DNA from: Bacteroidales bacterium
Lineage (GTDB): Bacteria > Bacteroidota > Bacteroidia > Bacteroidales > UBA932
Assembly: GCA_017483985.1 (NCBI GenBank)
Contig: JAFUUB010000029.1
Span: 1-19,927 of the forward strand
DNA length: 19,927 nt
Direction: 5' to 3'
Shown: piece by piece, positions 7,366 through 13,096 of the stretch
Layout: every line of letters starts with the position of its first letter
How positions within the stretch are numbered: the first letter of the stretch is position 1
Translations under genes and position numbers: made by a program
Notes under the pieces: generated by a model
Database searches by the model: none
The model's input: only the letters and a program-made list of their open reading frames with translations
What the model was told of the DNA's origin: nothing

Positions 7366-8067
7366 ATGGGAAAATTATTCGACGAGCTGAGCAAGGATCC
7401 CCGTCTGAAAGAGGGGTTGAAGACCTGTATCAATTGCGGGACTTGCACGGCCATCTGCCCGGCGGCCGAATTTTACCGCTATGACCCGCGCAAGATCGTG
7501 GATACCGTCCAGCGCAAGGACGATGCGGAGATTGAAGCATTGCTGCGCAGTGAGACCATCTGGTATTGCGGGGAATGCATGTCCTGCTTGACCCGCTGCC
7601 CCCGCAAGAACGGGGCGGGACTGGTCATCATGGCCCTGCGCCACCTTTCCATCCGTCTGGGCTACTTCACGGAATCAGAGAAGGGACGGCAGATCTGGCC
7701 GTTGACCAAGGCCCTGAATACGAACGTCCTGCAATATGGCTATTGTGTCCATCCCGCGACATTCGCTTTCGAGGACCATCCGGAATCCGGCCCTGTTTTC
7801 CAATGGGCGTTGGCGCACAAGGAGGATGTCTATGCCCGCCTCGGTGCCAACTACCAGGGCAAGGGCCCCGGTGTCCTGCGCCGGATCCCGCAGGCGGACC
7901 TGGATGAACTGAAGGCCATCTATGACGAGACCGGCGGGACGCAGCGGATCGAACTGGTGGAACGGTATTCCCGGGCCAAGGCCGCGGAGATGGGAATGAC
8001 CCTCGATGAATACACGGCCTATACGTTTAACCATTGCTCTCCGGGCCATTTCAACAACGGATTATGA
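7366..8067 (+). CDS. hdrC: HdrC-like iron-sulfur subunit (2 x [4Fe-4S])
   Basis: A 233-residue cytoplasmic protein related to heterodisulfide reductase subunit C, which passes electrons between HdrA and HdrB through two cubane clusters. Both cluster motifs are complete: Cys21, 24, 27, 31 (TCINCGTCTAICP) and Cys68, 71, 74, 78 (CGECMSCLTRCPR). The remaining 150 residues are more variable, with a helical tail containing SRAKAAEMGMTLDEY. It is longer than archaeal HdrC (about 190). I chose the ATG at 7366; an in-frame TTG at 7345 lies in the promoter box. The stop overlaps the hdrB start (ATGA). It is the first gene of the operon. The family is clear; the electron partner is inferred. Confidence 0.88.
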   Translation: MGKLFDELSKDPRLKEGLKTCINCGTCTAICPAAEFYRYDPRKIVDTVQRKDDAEIEALLRSETIWYCGECMSCLTRCPRKNGAGLVIMALRHLSIRLGYFTESEKGRQIWPLTKALNTNVLQYGYCVHPATFAFEDHPESGPVFQWALAHKEDVYARLGANYQGKGPGVLRRIPQADLDELKAIYDETGGTQRIELVERYSRAKAAEMGMTLDEYTAYTFNHCSPGHFNNGL

Positions 8068-9134
8068 TCTATCAGGGAAAACAGAAAATATGGTCGGACT
8101 ATCAGAAGGAAATCCCCTCCGACCATTGGTTCTATGTCCGGAGCTGTATCCGCCAGAGTTTTTTCCCGGGTTCTGAGAAATGGTTCCTGGGCATCTGTCG
8201 GGACATGCTGGGCAAGGATATCCATGAAACCGAGCACCATACGACCTGCGGCGGCATCGCTTACCACTGCGATGTGATCCCGCAGCTGACGGCCATGACC
8301 ATCGTGGCCCGGCAGTTCGCGCTGATGACCGAAGCCGGTTACAAGAACCTGGTAGCCTCGTGCATCACTTCTTTCGGCAATTATACCGAGACACTGGAGA
8401 CCTGGCGCGAGTTCCCGGAACTGGAGGCCCGTGTCCGGGAAGCCCTCTGGAAGTCTTGCCGGCGGGAGTTCGAGAAGCCGGAATACGTGGCCCATGCCAG
8501 CGACCTGATCTATAAGTTCCGGGGCGAAATTGCTGAAAAAGCGAAGTTCCGCCTGGTGGACCATCGGACGGGGGAGCCGCTCCGCGTCGTGGAGCATATC
8601 GGCTGCCACTATTCGAAGATGTTCCCGCACAAGGGCGTCGGCGGCGCGGAGTATCCCTGTGTCCTGAGCGGCATGGCCGAAGCTTGGGGCGGCCGGATCA
8701 TCGATTATCCGGAGCGCCGGCACTGCTGCGGCTTCGGCTTCCGCCAGTACCTGGTCAAGGCCAACCGGGGTTATTCGATGAGCAATACCCACAAGAAATT
8801 CGAGTCCATGGAACCCTACCATCCGGATATGATCATTACCAATTGTCCGGGATGTCCGTATTTCCTGGACCGCTGGCAGTATGTCATTTCCGAGCAGACG
8901 GGAAAGACCTATGGCCAGAACGGATATGGGATTCCGGTCCTGACGTATGAAGAATTGGCCGGACTGGTCCTGGGCATCGATCCCTGGGACCTGGGCCTGC
9001 AGATCCACCAGGTGACGGTCGAGCCTTTGCTGGACAAACTGGGCATTGCGTATGATCCTGCCAAGAAATACCTGGGCCTCAACGAGAAAGATATCATGAA
9101 ACCGGACCTCCCCACGGTCCTCAGATGTTGCTAG
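8064..9134 (+). CDS. hdrB: HdrB-like CCG-domain protein with a reduced N-terminal cluster site
   Basis: A 356-residue cytoplasmic protein resembling heterodisulfide reductase subunit B, the catalytic disulfide-reducing subunit. The C-terminal CCG motif is complete: Cys181, then Cys221-Cys222 (HCCGFGF) and Cys261-x2-Cys264 (NCPGCPYF), enough for a noncubane [4Fe-4S] site. The N-terminal motif is incomplete: Cys28, Thr61-Cys62 (TTCGG) and Cys100 with Ser103 (SCITS), so two of five cysteines are replaced. HdrB of methanogens carries two such sites. The protein is also longer than archaeal HdrB (about 290). The ATG at 8064 shares four bases with the hdrC stop. It may act on a disulfide other than CoM-S-S-CoB, or serve as an electron-transfer subunit. 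Confidence 0.85.
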   Translation: MIYQGKQKIWSDYQKEIPSDHWFYVRSCIRQSFFPGSEKWFLGICRDMLGKDIHETEHHTTCGGIAYHCDVIPQLTAMTIVARQFALMTEAGYKNLVASCITSFGNYTETLETWREFPELEARVREALWKSCRREFEKPEYVAHASDLIYKFRGEIAEKAKFRLVDHRTGEPLRVVEHIGCHYSKMFPHKGVGGAEYPCVLSGMAEAWGGRIIDYPERRHCCGFGFRQYLVKANRGYSMSNTHKKFESMEPYHPDMIITNCPGCPYFLDRWQYVISEQTGKTYGQNGYGIPVLTYEELAGLVLGIDPWDLGLQIHQVTVEPLLDKLGIAYDPAKKYLGLNEKDIMKPDLPTVLRCC

Positions 9135-9136
9135 CT

Positions 9137-10165
9137 ATGGAAGGTAAACCCAATAAAGAGCAAGTAGCCATCATCGGGGCCGGTATCGCCGGCCTGGAAG
9201 CGGCGCGTCAGTTGCTCCGTCTCGGCTATGCGCCGGTCCTGATTGAACAGGCGGACCATGCCGGCGGCCATGTCGCCGAATGGAACCGTTTGTTCCCGGA
9301 CAAGGTACCGGCGGCTCCGCTGGTGGAGGAGTTGTTGGAACAGACCCGTGAAGCGACCCTGATCCTTCGGGCGAAGATCCTCTCCGCCGGGCGGTTGGGC
9401 GATGGCTTCAATATCCGGCTTTCTGACGGGACGTCCCTGCATATCCGGGCCATCCTGATGGCCACGGGCTTCAGCCTGTTTGAGGCATGGAAAAAGGAAG
9501 AGTATGGCTACGGTGTCTATGACTGTGTACTTACAAACGCTGATCTTGAGCATTGGTTCAACACGGGCAACGATCCCCGGATCAAGGGCGACCTGCAGCG
9601 GATTGGTTTCGTACACTGCGTGGGGTCCCGTGACGTAAAGGCCGGGAACACCCAGTGCTCGAAAGTATGCTGTATCACGGCCATCAAGCAGGCCATCGAG
9701 ATGAAGGAACGCTTCCCGGAGGCGGAGATCTGGTGTTTTTACATGGACCTGCGCCTGTTCGGAAAGAAATATGAAGATTTCTATATCGGCGCCCAGCGGG
9801 ATTATGGCATCCACTTCATCCGGGGACGCGTGTCGGAAGTATCCGAGAACATTGACGGAAAGGTGATTGTCAAGGCGGAGGACACGCTGAACGGGAAACC
9901 CGTGAAGGTGACCTTGGATGCGTTGGTGCTGATGGCGGGGATGGTCTGCAATCGCGACATCCAGCCTTTGGCAAAGGAACTCTCCCTGTCCATCGACGAT
10001 GACGGCTATCTCAAAAGCCGCGACAACATCGGCTCGGTTACGCGTTCCGACCGGAAAGGAATCTTCCTGGCCGGTGCCGCGACGGGTCCCAAGACGATTC
10101 CGGAGACCCTTGCGGAAGCGCGCAGCGCCGCCCTGGATATCCATAACTTCTTAAGCGGCAGGTAA
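9137..10165 (+). CDS. hdrA: Short HdrA-like flavoprotein without ferredoxin domains
   Basis: A 342-residue FAD protein matching the thioredoxin-reductase-like core of HdrA. Dinucleotide binding is shown by IIGAGIAGLEAA (Gly14, 16, 19) and a second FAD region near GIFLAGAATGPKTIPE (308-323). The HdrA cysteine signature is present: HCVGSRD with Cys161, then Cys174, Cys178 and Cys179 (QCSKVCC). In archaeal HdrA, cysteines in this arrangement hold an iron-sulfur cluster. The family's ferredoxin modules are absent; full HdrA is about 650 residues. QmoA is similarly short. ATG 9137 is 2 bases past the hdrB stop; an in-frame ATG at 9125, overlapping hdrB, is possible. It probably moves electrons between flavin and the neighbouring iron-sulfur subunits. 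Confidence 0.85.
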   Translation: MEGKPNKEQVAIIGAGIAGLEAARQLLRLGYAPVLIEQADHAGGHVAEWNRLFPDKVPAAPLVEELLEQTREATLILRAKILSAGRLGDGFNIRLSDGTSLHIRAILMATGFSLFEAWKKEEYGYGVYDCVLTNADLEHWFNTGNDPRIKGDLQRIGFVHCVGSRDVKAGNTQCSKVCCITAIKQAIEMKERFPEAEIWCFYMDLRLFGKKYEDFYIGAQRDYGIHFIRGRVSEVSENIDGKVIVKAEDTLNGKPVKVTLDALVLMAGMVCNRDIQPLAKELSLSIDDDGYLKSRDNIGSVTRSDRKGIFLAGAATGPKTIPETLAEARSAALDIHNFLSGR

Positions 10166-10518
10166 TGGATTTTGGTTTTTCACTCGCGCCCAGTTCCGCC
10201 GTCAACCTGGATACGGTTGACCTGTCCCGCTATGACCGTCTGGTCCGATTGGAACCGGATGCCCGCATCTGCATGGCATGCGGGAGTTGCAGCGCGACCT
10301 GTACGGCCGGTCCCTTTTCCGGGATGAGCGTGCGCAAGGTCCTGCTCGGTCTGCAGCGGGGACAGGATGCGCAGGTCAACCGGATGCTGTCGGCCTGCAT
10401 GCTGTGCGGGAAATGCACGATGGTCTGTCCGCGCGGTATCAATACGAGGAATCTGATCCTGAATCTTTGCCGGATTGCGGCGGATGGTTCCGTTTCGAAA
10501 GGGGAGGGCCGTCTATGA
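10165..10518 (+). CDS. Small dicluster ferredoxin, second HdrC-like protein
   Basis: A 117-residue soluble protein with two [4Fe-4S] motifs: Cys36, 39, 42, 46 (CMACGSCSATCT) and Cys78, 81, 84, 88 (CMLCGKCTMVCPR). In the first, the usual proline after the fourth cysteine is threonine. The 31-residue gap between motifs and the RKVLLGLQRGQD helix between them are HdrC-like. Its start shares one base with the hdrA stop (TAATG) and its stop overlaps the next start (ATGA). Its position suggests it supplies the ferredoxin clusters that the short HdrA lacks and links it to the membrane protein downstream. That role is inferred. Confidence 0.85.
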   Translation: MDFGFSLAPSSAVNLDTVDLSRYDRLVRLEPDARICMACGSCSATCTAGPFSGMSVRKVLLGLQRGQDAQVNRMLSACMLCGKCTMVCPRGINTRNLILNLCRIAADGSVSKGEGRL

Positions 10519-12332
10519 TCGAACGGATCCCCGGCGCTTTCCATCCCTTCGTGCTGCCTTTTGTGTTCGGCATGCTGTTCGTCCTGACCTATTGTCTGGT
10601 CGGGATGATACGGGTATTCTTCGAGTTGCCGCGGGAGGACCGGAAACGTTTCCTGCTCAGCCTGGTCAACCCGAAAATCCTTTGGAAGGATATCAAGGAC
10701 ATTTTCCTGAACTGCCTGATCCATGTGAAGTTGTGGCAGCGGAACAAGGTGCTGGGCTATATGCATTCCAGCATTGCTTTCGGCTGGTTCATGCTGATCG
10801 TCCTCGGACACATCGAGGTGTTCCTGTTCCTGCCGCACCGGGTCCGCTTCTTCTATTATCCGATTTTCTTCAATTTCTTCGTAGCCGAGGCCGATGCGAC
10901 CATCCAGGGGAAAGTCCTTATGTTCCTGATGGACTTTTTCCTGTTGTTAATCCTGAGCGGTATCCTGCTGGCGGTCTATAAACGCTTCCGTTCCCGGATC
11001 TTCGGGATGCGGCGGACCACGCGGCCGTCTTTCCTGGACCGGGTTGCCATGTACGCGCTCTGGGCGATTTTCCCGCTCCGGCTGCTGGCGGAGACCTTTA
11101 CGGCCCATATCAGCGGCGGCAGTTTCCTGACCGAGCCGGCCGGACTCCTTTTCCACCGGTTTATCTCGAACGATATCCATGTCCTGCCGACCTGGTGGGC
11201 CTACTCGATTGCCTTGGGCATCTTCATGGTCCTGCTGCCGTTTACGCGGTACATGCATATCCCTGCCGAGATGCTGCTGATCCCGATGCGGAACGCCGGC
11301 ATCAGGATCCGTCATCCGCGCAAGGGTTTCGCCAAGCTGGAGTACTATACCTGCCCGAACTGCGGGGTCTGCATCGATGCCTGCCCGATGAGCGTGCGCA
11401 AGGAGAACCTGAAGGATTGCACCGTCTACCTGAACCGGCAGCTCCGCCGGGGCAATGAGCGCCGGATCGAACAGATCAGTGACAAATGCCTCCTGTGCGG
11501 AAAATGCTCGGCGGTGTGCCAGGTGGGGGTCCAGGGTCCCGAACTGCGGATGGCTCAGCGGGAACTCCGCACTTTTGTCCAGACACCGGATTATTCGGCC
11601 ATCGACACGGCTCCCATGCAGGCCGTCGTCAGCGCGAAGCCGGCCAAGGTCCTGTATTTCGCCGGTTGCATGACGTCCCTGACCCCGGGCATCCGCCGGG
11701 CGACGGAGACCCTGCTGAAAGCCGCCGGCGTCGATTACCAGCTGATGGATCCGGACGGAGGCCTGTGCTGCGGACGTCCGCTGATGATGGCCGGCCGGAA
11801 GGAGGCTGCGCAGGAGCTGATCCGCAAGAATGTGGAAATCATCCGTGCCAGCGGCTGCGACACCTTGCTGCTGACCTGTCCGATCTGCTACCGGGTCTTC
11901 ACGGAGTCCTATCCCTTGGAAGGGATCCGTGTCGTGCATCACAGCGTCTTCCTGGAAGAACTGATACGGGAGGACCGCCTTCCGGTGGAATATACTTCCG
12001 GCAGTTATGTCTACCACGATCCGTGCGAGCTGGGCCGGGGCTGCGGCATCTATGAGGAGCCGCGTGCTGCCCTCCGGCGGATCGGCTATCTGCATGAGGC
12101 AGGGAAACATCATGCCGAGAGCATTTGCTGCGGAGGCAGCCTGGGCAGCCTGTCGCTGGGTTTTGAAAAACGGAAAGACATTACGCTGAATGCGTTGCAT
12201 AATTTGACGGCCCATCAGCCGGAGACCATCGTGACGGCCTGCCCGTTGTGTAAGAGCACGTTCGCCCGCTATGCGGACCGTCCGGTCGAAGACCTGGCCG
12301 AAGTATTGGTTGAACATTTAAAAGCAGACTGA
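10515..12332 (+). CDS. Membrane HdrE-HdrD-like fusion: cytochrome b, 2 x [4Fe-4S], two CCG domains
   Basis: A 605-residue fusion. Residues 1-260 hold about five membrane helices (near 12-35, 83-105, 133-155, 177-196 and 224-243) with histidines 84, 99, 214 and 248 as candidate heme b ligands, as in HdrE/NarI/DsrM. Then follow two ferredoxin motifs (Cys280, 283, 286, 290 and Cys325, 328, 331, 335). Next come two complete CCG motifs (Cys385, 418-419, 455, 458; and Cys504, 538-539, 576, 579), as in HdrD, DsrK or GlpC. In methanogens and sulfate reducers the b subunit and the CCG subunit are often separate proteins. It should exchange electrons with menaquinone and reduce or oxidise a thiol substrate on the cytoplasmic side. 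ATG 10515 overlaps the previous stop. A GlpC/GlcF-type dehydrogenase subunit is the alternative. Confidence 0.85.
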   Translation: MIERIPGAFHPFVLPFVFGMLFVLTYCLVGMIRVFFELPREDRKRFLLSLVNPKILWKDIKDIFLNCLIHVKLWQRNKVLGYMHSSIAFGWFMLIVLGHIEVFLFLPHRVRFFYYPIFFNFFVAEADATIQGKVLMFLMDFFLLLILSGILLAVYKRFRSRIFGMRRTTRPSFLDRVAMYALWAIFPLRLLAETFTAHISGGSFLTEPAGLLFHRFISNDIHVLPTWWAYSIALGIFMVLLPFTRYMHIPAEMLLIPMRNAGIRIRHPRKGFAKLEYYTCPNCGVCIDACPMSVRKENLKDCTVYLNRQLRRGNERRIEQISDKCLLCGKCSAVCQVGVQGPELRMAQRELRTFVQTPDYSAIDTAPMQAVVSAKPAKVLYFAGCMTSLTPGIRRATETLLKAAGVDYQLMDPDGGLCCGRPLMMAGRKEAAQELIRKNVEIIRASGCDTLLLTCPICYRVFTESYPLEGIRVVHHSVFLEELIREDRLPVEYTSGSYVYHDPCELGRGCGIYEEPRAALRRIGYLHEAGKHHAESICCGGSLGSLSLGFEKRKDITLNALHNLTAHQPETIVTACPLCKSTFARYADRPVEDLAEVLVEHLKAD

Positions 12333-12334
12333 CC

Positions 12335-13096
12335 ATGAGCAAGATTGTCCTGATTACCGGCGCTACCAGTGGCATCGGAGCCGCCTGCGCCCTGCGTTTC
12401 GCCAAAACCGGCGGATATGACCTGATCCTGACGGGCCGCAATGCCCGCAAACTGGAAGATGTCTCCGGCCAGGTCCGGGAATGCGGTTGCCGGGTCCTGC
12501 CCCTGCTCTTCGATGTGCGTGTCCGGGAATCCTGCATCCGGGCCATCGAACAACTGCCTGCCGAGTGGCGGGAGATTGATATCCTGGTCAACAACGCCGG
12601 TCTTGCCCTGGGCCTGGAACCGGAGTTCGAGGGTCGTTTCGAGGACTGGGACACCATGATTGATACCAATATCAAGGGATTGCTGAACATGACGCGCCTG
12701 GTCGTTCCCGGAATGGTGGAGCGGGGCAGGGGACACGTGATCAACATCGGTTCCGTTGCCGGGGATGCGGCGTATGCAAACGGTGGGGTCTATTGCGCCA
12801 CCAAGGCTGCCGTGAAAACCCTGACGGACGGGCTCCGGATCGACCTGGCCGCTACGCCGGTGCGGGTGACCAATGTCAAACCGGGACTGGTGGAGACCAA
12901 TTTCAGCAATGTCCGTTTCCATGGTGACGCCGAAAGGGCTTCCCATGTGTATGAGGGCATCGAGCCACTGACCGGCGACGATATCGCCGATGTCGTCCTG
13001 TTTGCGGCACAGGCACCTGCACATGTGCAGATCGCCGAGGTCCTGGTCCTGGCCACTCACCAGGCCAGCGGCAGTGTCATCCATCGCGAATCATGA
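12335..13096 (+). CDS. ydfG: NADP-dependent 3-hydroxy acid dehydrogenase, YdfG-type SDR
   Basis: A 253-residue short-chain dehydrogenase. It shows the cofactor loop TGATSGIG (8-15) with Arg36 favouring NADP, NNAG (86-89), Asn112, Ser140, and the catalytic pair Tyr153-Lys157 (YCATK). It follows E. coli YdfG closely: LPAEWREIDILVNNAG, MIDTNIKGLLNMTR, PGMVERGRGHVINIGS and FSNVRFHGD. YdfG oxidises serine, allo-threonine and other 3-hydroxy acids in the cytoplasm. It begins 2 bases after the membrane fusion stop and its own stop overlaps the cardiolipin synthase start. The link to the Hdr complex may be an NADPH supply or may be incidental co-transcription. Confidence 0.93.
   Translation: MSKIVLITGATSGIGAACALRFAKTGGYDLILTGRNARKLEDVSGQVRECGCRVLPLLFDVRVRESCIRAIEQLPAEWREIDILVNNAGLALGLEPEFEGRFEDWDTMIDTNIKGLLNMTRLVVPGMVERGRGHVINIGSVAGDAAYANGGVYCATKAAVKTLTDGLRIDLAATPVRVTNVKPGLVETNFSNVRFHGDAERASHVYEGIEPLTGDDIADVVLFAAQAPAHVQIAEVLVLATHQASGSVIHRES

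Follow-up and report, generated by a model that had tools for sequence, protein, structure and literature searches.

An sHdr-like five-gene cluster of anaerobic Bacteroidales and its possible role in making sulfite for sulfonolipids

The stretch of DNA analyzed here (the window) comprises the 19,927 nucleotides of contig JAFUUB010000029.1 (assembly GCA_017483985.1) from a Bacteroidales bacterium of the UBA932 lineage. Its forward strand carries, at 7366–12332, five genes whose products are related to the subunits of heterodisulfide reductase (Hdr) and of sHdr, the Hdr-like complex of sulfur oxidation, and we consider here whether this block may provide the sulfite used in sulfonolipid synthesis. 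The genes encode, in this order, an HdrC-like dicluster subunit resembling sHdrC1, with two CxxCxxCxxxC motifs (7366–8067, 233 amino acids), an HdrB-like subunit (8064–9134, 356 amino acids), a short HdrA-like subunit binding flavin adenine dinucleotide (FAD) and having the architecture of sHdrA (9137–10165, 342 amino acids), a dicluster ferredoxin occupying the position of HdrC2 (10165–10518, 117 amino acids), and an EtfD-like membrane fusion that replaces sHdrB2 (10515–12332, 605 amino acids). The HdrB gene overlaps that of HdrC by 4 bases, the ferredoxin gene that of HdrA by 1 base, and the fusion gene that of the ferredoxin by 4 bases. The gap between the HdrB and HdrA genes is 2 bases with ATG 9137 as the HdrA start, a further ATG lying upstream at 9125. 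The back-to-back arrangement described in the initial annotation, which was made from the sequence alone, is therefore confirmed, its 2-base gap depending on this choice of start codon.

All five proteins are Hdr relatives by Pfam and NCBIfam, with none reaching an Hdr equivalog cut-off. Their Pfam domains are, in order, 4Fe-4S dicluster, CCG, FAD/pyridine-nucleotide oxidoreductase, 4Fe-4S dicluster, and two CCG domains together with 4Fe-4S. The block contains six cubane cluster motifs, as the initial annotation had counted. The complete CCG motifs are three, two in the fusion and one in the C-terminal half of HdrB, rather than the two complete and one partial given there; the site taken as partial is a strictly conserved three-cysteine site of HdrB, and a cysteine motif of HdrA had been overlooked in the cofactor inventory.

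In most of the tabulated loci no subunit is better conserved than HdrB. It has a single CCG domain, scores 139.9 bits with the HdrB model NF041780, and matches HdrB chains in the PDB down to 1.4e-32. The three-cysteine site in its N-terminal half (C28, C62, and C100; 8145–8363) is kept in all 80 aligned relatives as well as in a cyanobacterial homologue. Positions 61 and 103 of this site hold T/S and S/T, respectively, where the methanogen HdrB chain 5odc_B has Cys at both places in the alignment; in the window T61 and S103 stand in for the two cysteines. The C-terminal half carries the complete CCG motif (C181, C221, C222, C261, and C264; 8604–8855). We propose that HdrB provides the sulfite-forming site, similar to that of sHdrB1. 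The HdrC protein matches the HdrC model NF041779 with 76.7 bits, under the equivalog cut-off, keeps its eight cluster cysteines in 99–100% of 72 relatives, and is 43% identical to a cyanobacterial C1 protein.

The HdrA protein aligns over its full length to PDB entry 6tjr (residues 10–334 on 4–335, 1e-56), a chain of 349 residues that we take to be the sHdrA of Hyphomicrobium denitrificans, and falls far under the cut-off of the HdrA models. Its C-x12-C-x3-CC motif (C161, C174, C178, and C179; 9617–9673), found in all 84 aligned relatives and common to the aligned solved HdrA-type chains, is the one missing from the earlier inventory and is probably a [4Fe-4S] site next to the FAD. The dicluster ferredoxin matches the HdrC model TIGR03290 with 39.8 bits and keeps its eight cysteines in 99–100% of 76 relatives.

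In the fusion subunit, NarI/HdrE-like helices, a dicluster region, and two CCG domains are joined in one chain. The N-terminal membrane domain (10515–11294) contains three invariant histidines, H70, H84, and H248, which are His in 96 of 96 relatives and are possible ligands of b-type heme; a fourth, H99, is kept in 79%. The domain is followed by two 4Fe-4S motifs (11352–11519) and by the CCG motifs 1 (C385, C418, C419, C455, and C458; 11667–11888) and 2 (C504, C538, C539, C576, and C579; 12024–12251). The closest solved fold is EtfD of Mycobacterium smegmatis (9ojn; E 1.3e-18, 17% identity in the fold alignment). The AlphaFold model used is of moderate quality (mean predicted local distance difference test 74, predicted template modeling score 0.52, with low values in the 4Fe-4S segment), and for this reason nothing beyond the overall match to EtfD is relied on. 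The set of NarI-like helices, 4Fe-4S motifs, and two CCG domains that marks EtfD is found in the fusion taken by itself. As for an EtfAB partner, no ETF domain occurs in the main open reading frames (ORFs) of the window according to Pfam, EtfAB not having been searched for in the genomes of relatives. The best NCBIfam model for the fusion is TfrB, with 100.5 bits against a cut-off of 385. The LdhH, GlpC, and GlcF families of lactate, glycerol-3-phosphate, and glycolate oxidation, in which the initial annotation had allowed that the proteins might fall, match only CCG and 4Fe-4S stretches, far under their cut-offs.

A genome scan with the fusion as the query gave 273 confirmed relatives, 80 loci of which were kept. 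Among the matches listed, the relatives belong to Bacteroidales, Bacteroidia, or Candidatus Cryptobacteroides, many of them from rumen or gut metagenome assemblies. The nearest locus (L001, in the rumen Bacteroidales genome G001) has an HdrB 99% and a fusion 93% identical to those of the window. The order HdrC, HdrB, HdrA, ferredoxin, fusion (C-B-A-F-ED) is complete in one block in 102 of 152 loci, a recurrence far beyond chance. Most incomplete loci end at a contig or fetch edge, 34 of the 152 being shorter than 4.5 kb. The exceptions are C-F-ED-B-A in L127 and L130, B-A only in the full-length loci L131, L139, and L152, and nine loci with the C-B pair alone.

The occurrence of the cluster was further followed in three samples drawn from the taxa of G001, at the level of the family (n = 99), the order (n = 295), and the phylum (n = 247), with HdrB at E ≤ 1e-20 as a proxy for the whole cluster. 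HdrB is present in 41 of 99, 92 of 295, and 3 of 247 genomes, respectively, the last being G001 itself and two distant matches of 31–32% identity. A search of plasmids for HdrA relatives returned two records, one cyanobacterial and one from Ilyobacter, the latter annotated with a long HdrA and a hydrogenase iron-sulfur subunit.

The genes found beside the Hdr block in relatives connect it to sulfonolipids. Of the 80 scan loci, 29 carry a cluster c6 gene behind the fusion or in its vicinity. The member tested (L066) scores 453.7 bits with TIGR03844, whose cut-off is 324.9, and 557.8 bits with PDB entry 9k3c, and the remaining members are 61–100% identical to it; on these matches c6 is cysteate synthase. 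Cluster c12, the tested member of which (L127) matches PDB entry 28eh with 555.9 bits, is likewise identified as the cysteate acyltransferase. A lysine, Lys281, in place of the alanine of serine palmitoyltransferase is described as the mark of this enzyme, SulA (PMC9304779), and it is present in 9 of 10 c12 neighbors. The tenth, in L072, is a 30% relative, lacks this lysine, and was dropped as an acyltransferase. The acyltransferase lies near the Hdr block in several arrangements (L024, L026, L041, L053, L127, L130, L132, L134, and L143), and these nine loci also hold a short-chain dehydrogenase/reductase (SDR) gene (seven), a glyoxalase-family gene (five), or a threonine-synthase-like gene, c48 (four).

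Two of these companions deserve a separate remark. The glyoxalase-superfamily protein (PF00903; cluster c18, L026:3689–4774 and homologues) recurs in sulfonolipid gene clusters and is perhaps a step of the lipid pathway. The c48 protein (L130:1977–3197; L223–L228) is a threonine-synthase-like Zn-ribbon protein linked to cysteate acyltransferase and CysH, and it is a candidate for a second, unannotated cysteate synthase in Bacteroidales.

With L072 dropped, a cysteate synthase, c48, or acyltransferase gene is linked to the Hdr block in 29 of 81 well-flanked loci. On a tree of HdrB this linked state requires seven changes and is mainly found in two separate clades; the cyanobacterial HdrB used as the outgroup has a very long branch, and the root was therefore not used. 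The window belongs to the family clade in which many others carry rumA-C-B-A-F-ED-cysteate synthase. In the genome of L001, the cysteate synthase is found past the end of rumA, with one gene between and with Hdr absent there (L153), so that the Hdr block seems to have changed its place in the lineage of the window.

The association is also seen at the level of whole genomes. In the family sample HdrB is found in 41 genomes and cysteate synthase above the TIGR03844 cut-off in 46, with both in 35 (Fisher p = 3.5e-11); in 29 of these 35 the two genes lie within 6 kb, in one more within 10 kb, and in five on different contigs. Among the window's kin, 33 of 37 genomes have a cysteate synthase, 32 of them above the cut-off, and an acyltransferase with the lysine is found in 12 of 14 (counting the query's own genome and one split match), an edge fragment occurring in one more. 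In the order sample, cysteate synthase is present in 81 genomes (80 above the cut-off), 33 of them together with HdrB, a weak association (p = 0.035). The acyltransferase-like gene, at E ≤ 1e-110, occurs in 207 of the 295 genomes, namely in 84 of 92 with HdrB versus 123 of 203 others (p = 2e-8). The c48 gene is present in 54 of the 295 and together with TIGR03844 in none (p = 4.5e-9), a mutual exclusion that would be expected of two enzymes for one job and that kinship could also produce.

If the Hdr complex supplies the sulfite for cysteate, genomes having a synthase and lacking CysH, the 3′-phosphoadenosine-5′-phosphosulfate/adenosine-5′-phosphosulfate reductase that ordinarily produces sulfite, should hold Hdr. 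In the order sample CysH (TIGR00434) is found in 183 of 295 genomes at E ≤ 1e-20, 169 of these above the cut-off. Of the 135 genomes that have TIGR03844 or c48, those with HdrB divide into 22 with and 25 without CysH, versus 79 and 9 for those without HdrB (p = 1.2e-7). The same tendency holds for TIGR03844 alone (17 and 16 with HdrB versus 42 and 6 without; p = 0.0007) and for c48 alone (5 and 9 versus 37 and 3; p = 6e-5). HdrB and CysH show no relation when all 295 genomes are taken (p = 0.52), and genome size does not account for the complementarity (in a logistic model p = 6.6e-7 for CysH and 0.90 for size). Where CysH is missing, HdrB is present in 25 of 34 genomes with a cysteate synthase versus 7 of 78 without (p = 1.4e-11), and one or the other of HdrB and CysH is found in 126 of the 135 synthase genomes versus 89 of 160 others.

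In at least nine of the 54 c48 genomes, CysH lies within 10 kb of c48, and HdrB is absent from eight of these nine. The adjacency counts for CysH and the acyltransferase are lower bounds, the acyltransferase list covering 20 chosen places. In six c48-CysH loci (L223–L228), the acyltransferase, CysH, and c48 stand together in all six, and the row of L228 reads acyltransferase, glyoxalase-family gene, CysH, CysD, CysN, a transporter-like gene, CysQ, and c48. Its genome, G415, carries HdrB too, on another contig. In L127 and L130 the Hdr block stands in a neighborhood of this type.

Taken together, the linked cysteate synthase and acyltransferase genes and the complementarity with CysH suggest that sulfite is formed for sulfonolipids, which narrows the donor and acceptor that the initial annotation had left unassigned. 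We consider it somewhat probable (roughly 0.55) that the five proteins form a menaquinone-coupled, sHdr-like membrane complex that oxidizes sulfane sulfur to sulfite for cysteate and sulfonolipids without a lipoate-binding protein. The gene set and its order, the motifs, the linkage in relatives, the co-occurrence, and the complementarity with CysH are observed, whereas the enzymatic activity, direction, electron acceptor, and sulfur donor are inferred. HdrB, with HdrC, would oxidize a protein- or thiol-bound persulfide on a carrier to sulfite in a four-electron reaction. The electrons would pass through HdrC and the flavin and [4Fe-4S] cluster of HdrA to the dicluster ferredoxin, from there to the EtfD/HdrED-like fusion, and finally to menaquinone. 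The potentials of menaquinone and fumarate would make the overall reaction feasible. The sulfite would then be used by cysteate synthase, which would convert it with phosphoserine to cysteate, and the cysteate fatty acyltransferase would lead on to capnine-type sulfonolipids. The archaeal cysteate synthase is described as adding sulfite to a phosphoserine-derived intermediate (PMC12713407). The complex would thus serve these anaerobes as CysH serves other Bacteroidales. The broader formulation, that it represents a biosynthetic counterpart of sHdr in anaerobic Bacteroidales, making sulfite without a lipoate-binding protein, passing electrons to menaquinone and thence to fumarate, and replacing sulfate assimilation for cysteate and sulfonolipids, is in our view about an even bet.

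A number of observations weigh against this proposal. The window itself has no relative of cysteate synthase, the acyltransferase, c48, CysH, or the glyoxalase-family gene, and no recognized acyltransferase is found in the nearest genome, G001. Over the whole order sample HdrB shows no association with TIGR03844 or c48 taken together (p = 0.26). Neither of the two is present in 45 of the 92 HdrB genomes, of which 41 have the acyltransferase-like gene and 38 have CysH; in such genomes there is either a third cysteate synthase or another role for the complex. Capnocytophaga is described in a review as using a different enzyme, CapA (PMC10191378). The co-occurrence counts carry no correction for phylogeny, and the linked loci are not independent, being mainly confined to two HdrB clades. 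The role of c48 as a cysteate synthase is itself inferred, and with TIGR03844 only the complementarity has p = 0.0007. No gene for a lipoate-binding protein was found near the cluster: among the 152 loci, 34 of them shorter than 4.5 kb, L021 alone has a GcvH-like gene, at a distance of about 6 kb, and the window has none. Finally, the activity and direction of the complex are not readable from sequence.

Several of these points would suit a general menaquinone-linked thiol/disulfide redox complex with another substrate, the sulfonolipid linkage being incidental or regulatory. The HdrB genomes without a recognized cysteate synthase, the lack of a lipoate-binding protein gene near the cluster, and the 52 of 81 well-flanked loci that have no linked lipid gene (again without L072) and show varied neighbors all agree with such a role. 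We nevertheless regard it as unlikely, if still to be reckoned with, since the linkage arises in two separate HdrB clades with different pathway genes and the negative tie to CysH is confined to genomes with a cysteate synthase. That tie also bears on the direction of the reaction. The methanogen homologues are heterodisulfide reductases, CysH is also found in 60 of the 92 HdrB genomes, and the direction is, as said, not readable; the complex might accordingly use menaquinol to reduce sulfite or a disulfide, for instance as a means of removing surplus sulfite. However, one would not expect to meet a consumer of sulfite more often in genomes that lack CysH and have a sulfite-using enzyme (25 of 34 versus 7 of 78), which makes this improbable.

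A further possibility is the detoxification of sulfide or sulfane sulfur, with sulfite for lipids as a by-product. Detoxification has been suggested for the Hdr genes of Black Sea isolates (PMC11129491), and single loci of a separate C-B pair lie near genes for rhodanese, YeeE-type transport, or a disulfide reductase (L115 and L120). This setting is, however, that of the second C-B pair and not of the full cluster, and detoxification leaves unexplained both the association with cysteate synthase and the CysH complementarity; we hold it to be quite improbable. The initial annotation had offered menaquinone coupling or flavin bifurcation. The former is retained, the best fold match of the fusion being EtfD, whereas the latter is rejected on account of the short HdrA and the absence of MvhD from the window. 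The HdrA homologue does contain FAD, but it lacks the extra domains of bifurcating HdrA, and sHdrA reportedly forms a stable semiquinone, unlike bifurcating flavins. In line with the initial annotation, no hydrogenase, MvhD, or Flox domain, and no ETF domain either, is found by Pfam among the other main ORFs of the window (4 of 12 have no match at all), the rest of the genome not having been searched for them. An electron-bifurcating complex is therefore very hard to credit.

The other main ORFs of the window are unrelated to Hdr by Pfam. They include carbonic anhydrase, AhpC/TSA, Na/Pi cotransporter, GAF, cytosine permease, SDR, PLD-family, tRNA-editing, NAD synthase, and nucleoside phosphorylase matches, besides the four without any. 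The SDR gene (12335–13096) begins 2 bases past the fusion and is retained in L001 and L002. It is YdfG-like (265 bits versus a cut-off of 411), is distant from the SDR that accompanies the Hdr block elsewhere (26–33% identity where matching), and is a possible 3-ketocapnine reductase. At five other loci (L136, L137, L138, L144, and L148), genes for a sensor kinase and a LuxR-type response regulator stand directly upstream of the Hdr block; the Pfam identification was made on a single kinase and a single regulator belonging to these clusters.

The C-B pair without HdrA, ferredoxin, and fusion is found in L113, L114, L115, L117, L118, L120, L121, L123, and L129. In eight of these nine genomes there is a second HdrB copy, G339 (L129) having one only. 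Several of the pairs lie beside DUF134, NifX-type, NUBPL/Mrp, CGGC, and CobO-type genes (one example of each was tested), and single ones near rhodanese (L115), YeeE-type sulfur transport (L115), disulfide-reductase (L120), and thioredoxin (L129) genes. The separate pair may be a distinct sulfur-trafficking system.

The Black Sea isolates mentioned above belong to several phyla and include the Bacteroidota Ancylomarina and Labilibaculum; they are described as having "a complete set" of Hdr-type sulfur oxidation genes (PMC11129491). The same paper cites capnine lipids in these two genera, and its accessible text draws no link between the lipids and the Hdr genes. In the openly licensed literature we found neither a report of a link between sulfonolipids and heterodisulfide reductase nor a description of this five-gene set in Bacteroidota, and in the small set of sulfonolipid papers examined the word "sulfite" was not met in the main text. 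Gut Bacteroidota contain sulfonolipids that are under study as host-active molecules, and the cysteate synthase route to these lipids requires sulfite. If correct, the present proposal would name a missing sulfite source for gut lineages without CysH, would mean that an enzyme of Hdr-type sulfur oxidation can serve biosynthesis under strict anoxia, and would add a quinone-linked variant of sHdr working without the lipoate-binding protein.

It remains to compare the cluster with known systems. The initial annotation found it unlike Hdr, Qmo, and Dsr, which is right, and overlooked a closer relative, sHdr, to which the gene order and the short HdrA point. The Qmo and Dsr membrane complexes are similar in having quinone-linked Hdr-type subunits. 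Qmo has two HdrA-like subunits, and its HdrC is fused to HdrE, whereas the window has one short HdrA and HdrD, not HdrC, is fused to HdrE; the QmoC and DsrK models are far under their cut-offs on the window proteins (QmoC reaches 41 bits on HdrC, against 300). With the methanogen HdrABC(-MvhD), the cluster shares homologues of HdrA, HdrB, and HdrC. However, its HdrA is about half as long, no MvhD is found in the window, the N-terminal site of HdrB is altered so that HdrB does not have two complete CCG sites, and a ferredoxin and a membrane subunit are added. Like the fusion, the EtfD/HdrED-like oxidoreductases combine membrane helices with two 4Fe-4S motifs and two CCG domains in a single chain, but the fusion sits in an Hdr cluster with no ETF gene in the window.

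A plasmid cluster of Picosynechococcus sp. PCC 7003 (L161:7068–12808) is an sHdr-like system in a cyanobacterium. It has the order C-B-A-C2-B2, unfused, with C, B, and A proteins 42–45% identical to those of the window and an identical three-cysteine site in HdrB. It differs in that B2 is a separate protein of 290 amino acids aligning only to the CCG part of the fusion, and in that a gene for an FAD-dependent oxidoreductase comes next.

Two layouts of sHdr clusters have been described: type I, hdrC1B1A-hyp-hdrC2B2, and type II, which has a fused B3 and etfAB (PMC12345210, PMC6067878, PMC11582611). The subunit sHdrB1 is proposed to be catalytic (PMC11582611), and the reaction proposed for the Hdr-like complex is R-S-S- + 3 H2O -> R-S- + HSO3- + 5 H+ (PMC6067878). 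A gene for a lipoate-binding protein is reported always to accompany these clusters; this protein, LbpA, is GcvH-like and has two conserved cysteines, one near the N-terminus and one near the C-terminus, and LplA goes along with it in sHdr. In 25 kin genomes we find 21 strong GcvH matches, and the two-cysteine pattern of LbpA in none of the 18 examined. A GcvH with a single C-terminal cysteine (residue 124) occurs in four kin genomes (L163, L164, L165, and L167). The window differs from sHdr also in that B2 is part of a membrane-anchored EtfD-like fusion, C2 is of ferredoxin size, and the hyp gene is missing, and in that it belongs to anaerobic Bacteroidales, with linkage to biosynthesis rather than lithotrophy. 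The cluster is not classed as a member of sHdr because of the absent lipoate-binding protein gene. On the other hand, the order C-B-A-C2-B2(fused) is that of sHdr minus the hyp gene, the short HdrA is of equal length and has the FAD and [4Fe-4S] motif, the B1-like and C1-like subunits are present, and the sulfite-using neighbors in relatives suggest the same product, so that the window cluster may well work like sHdr.

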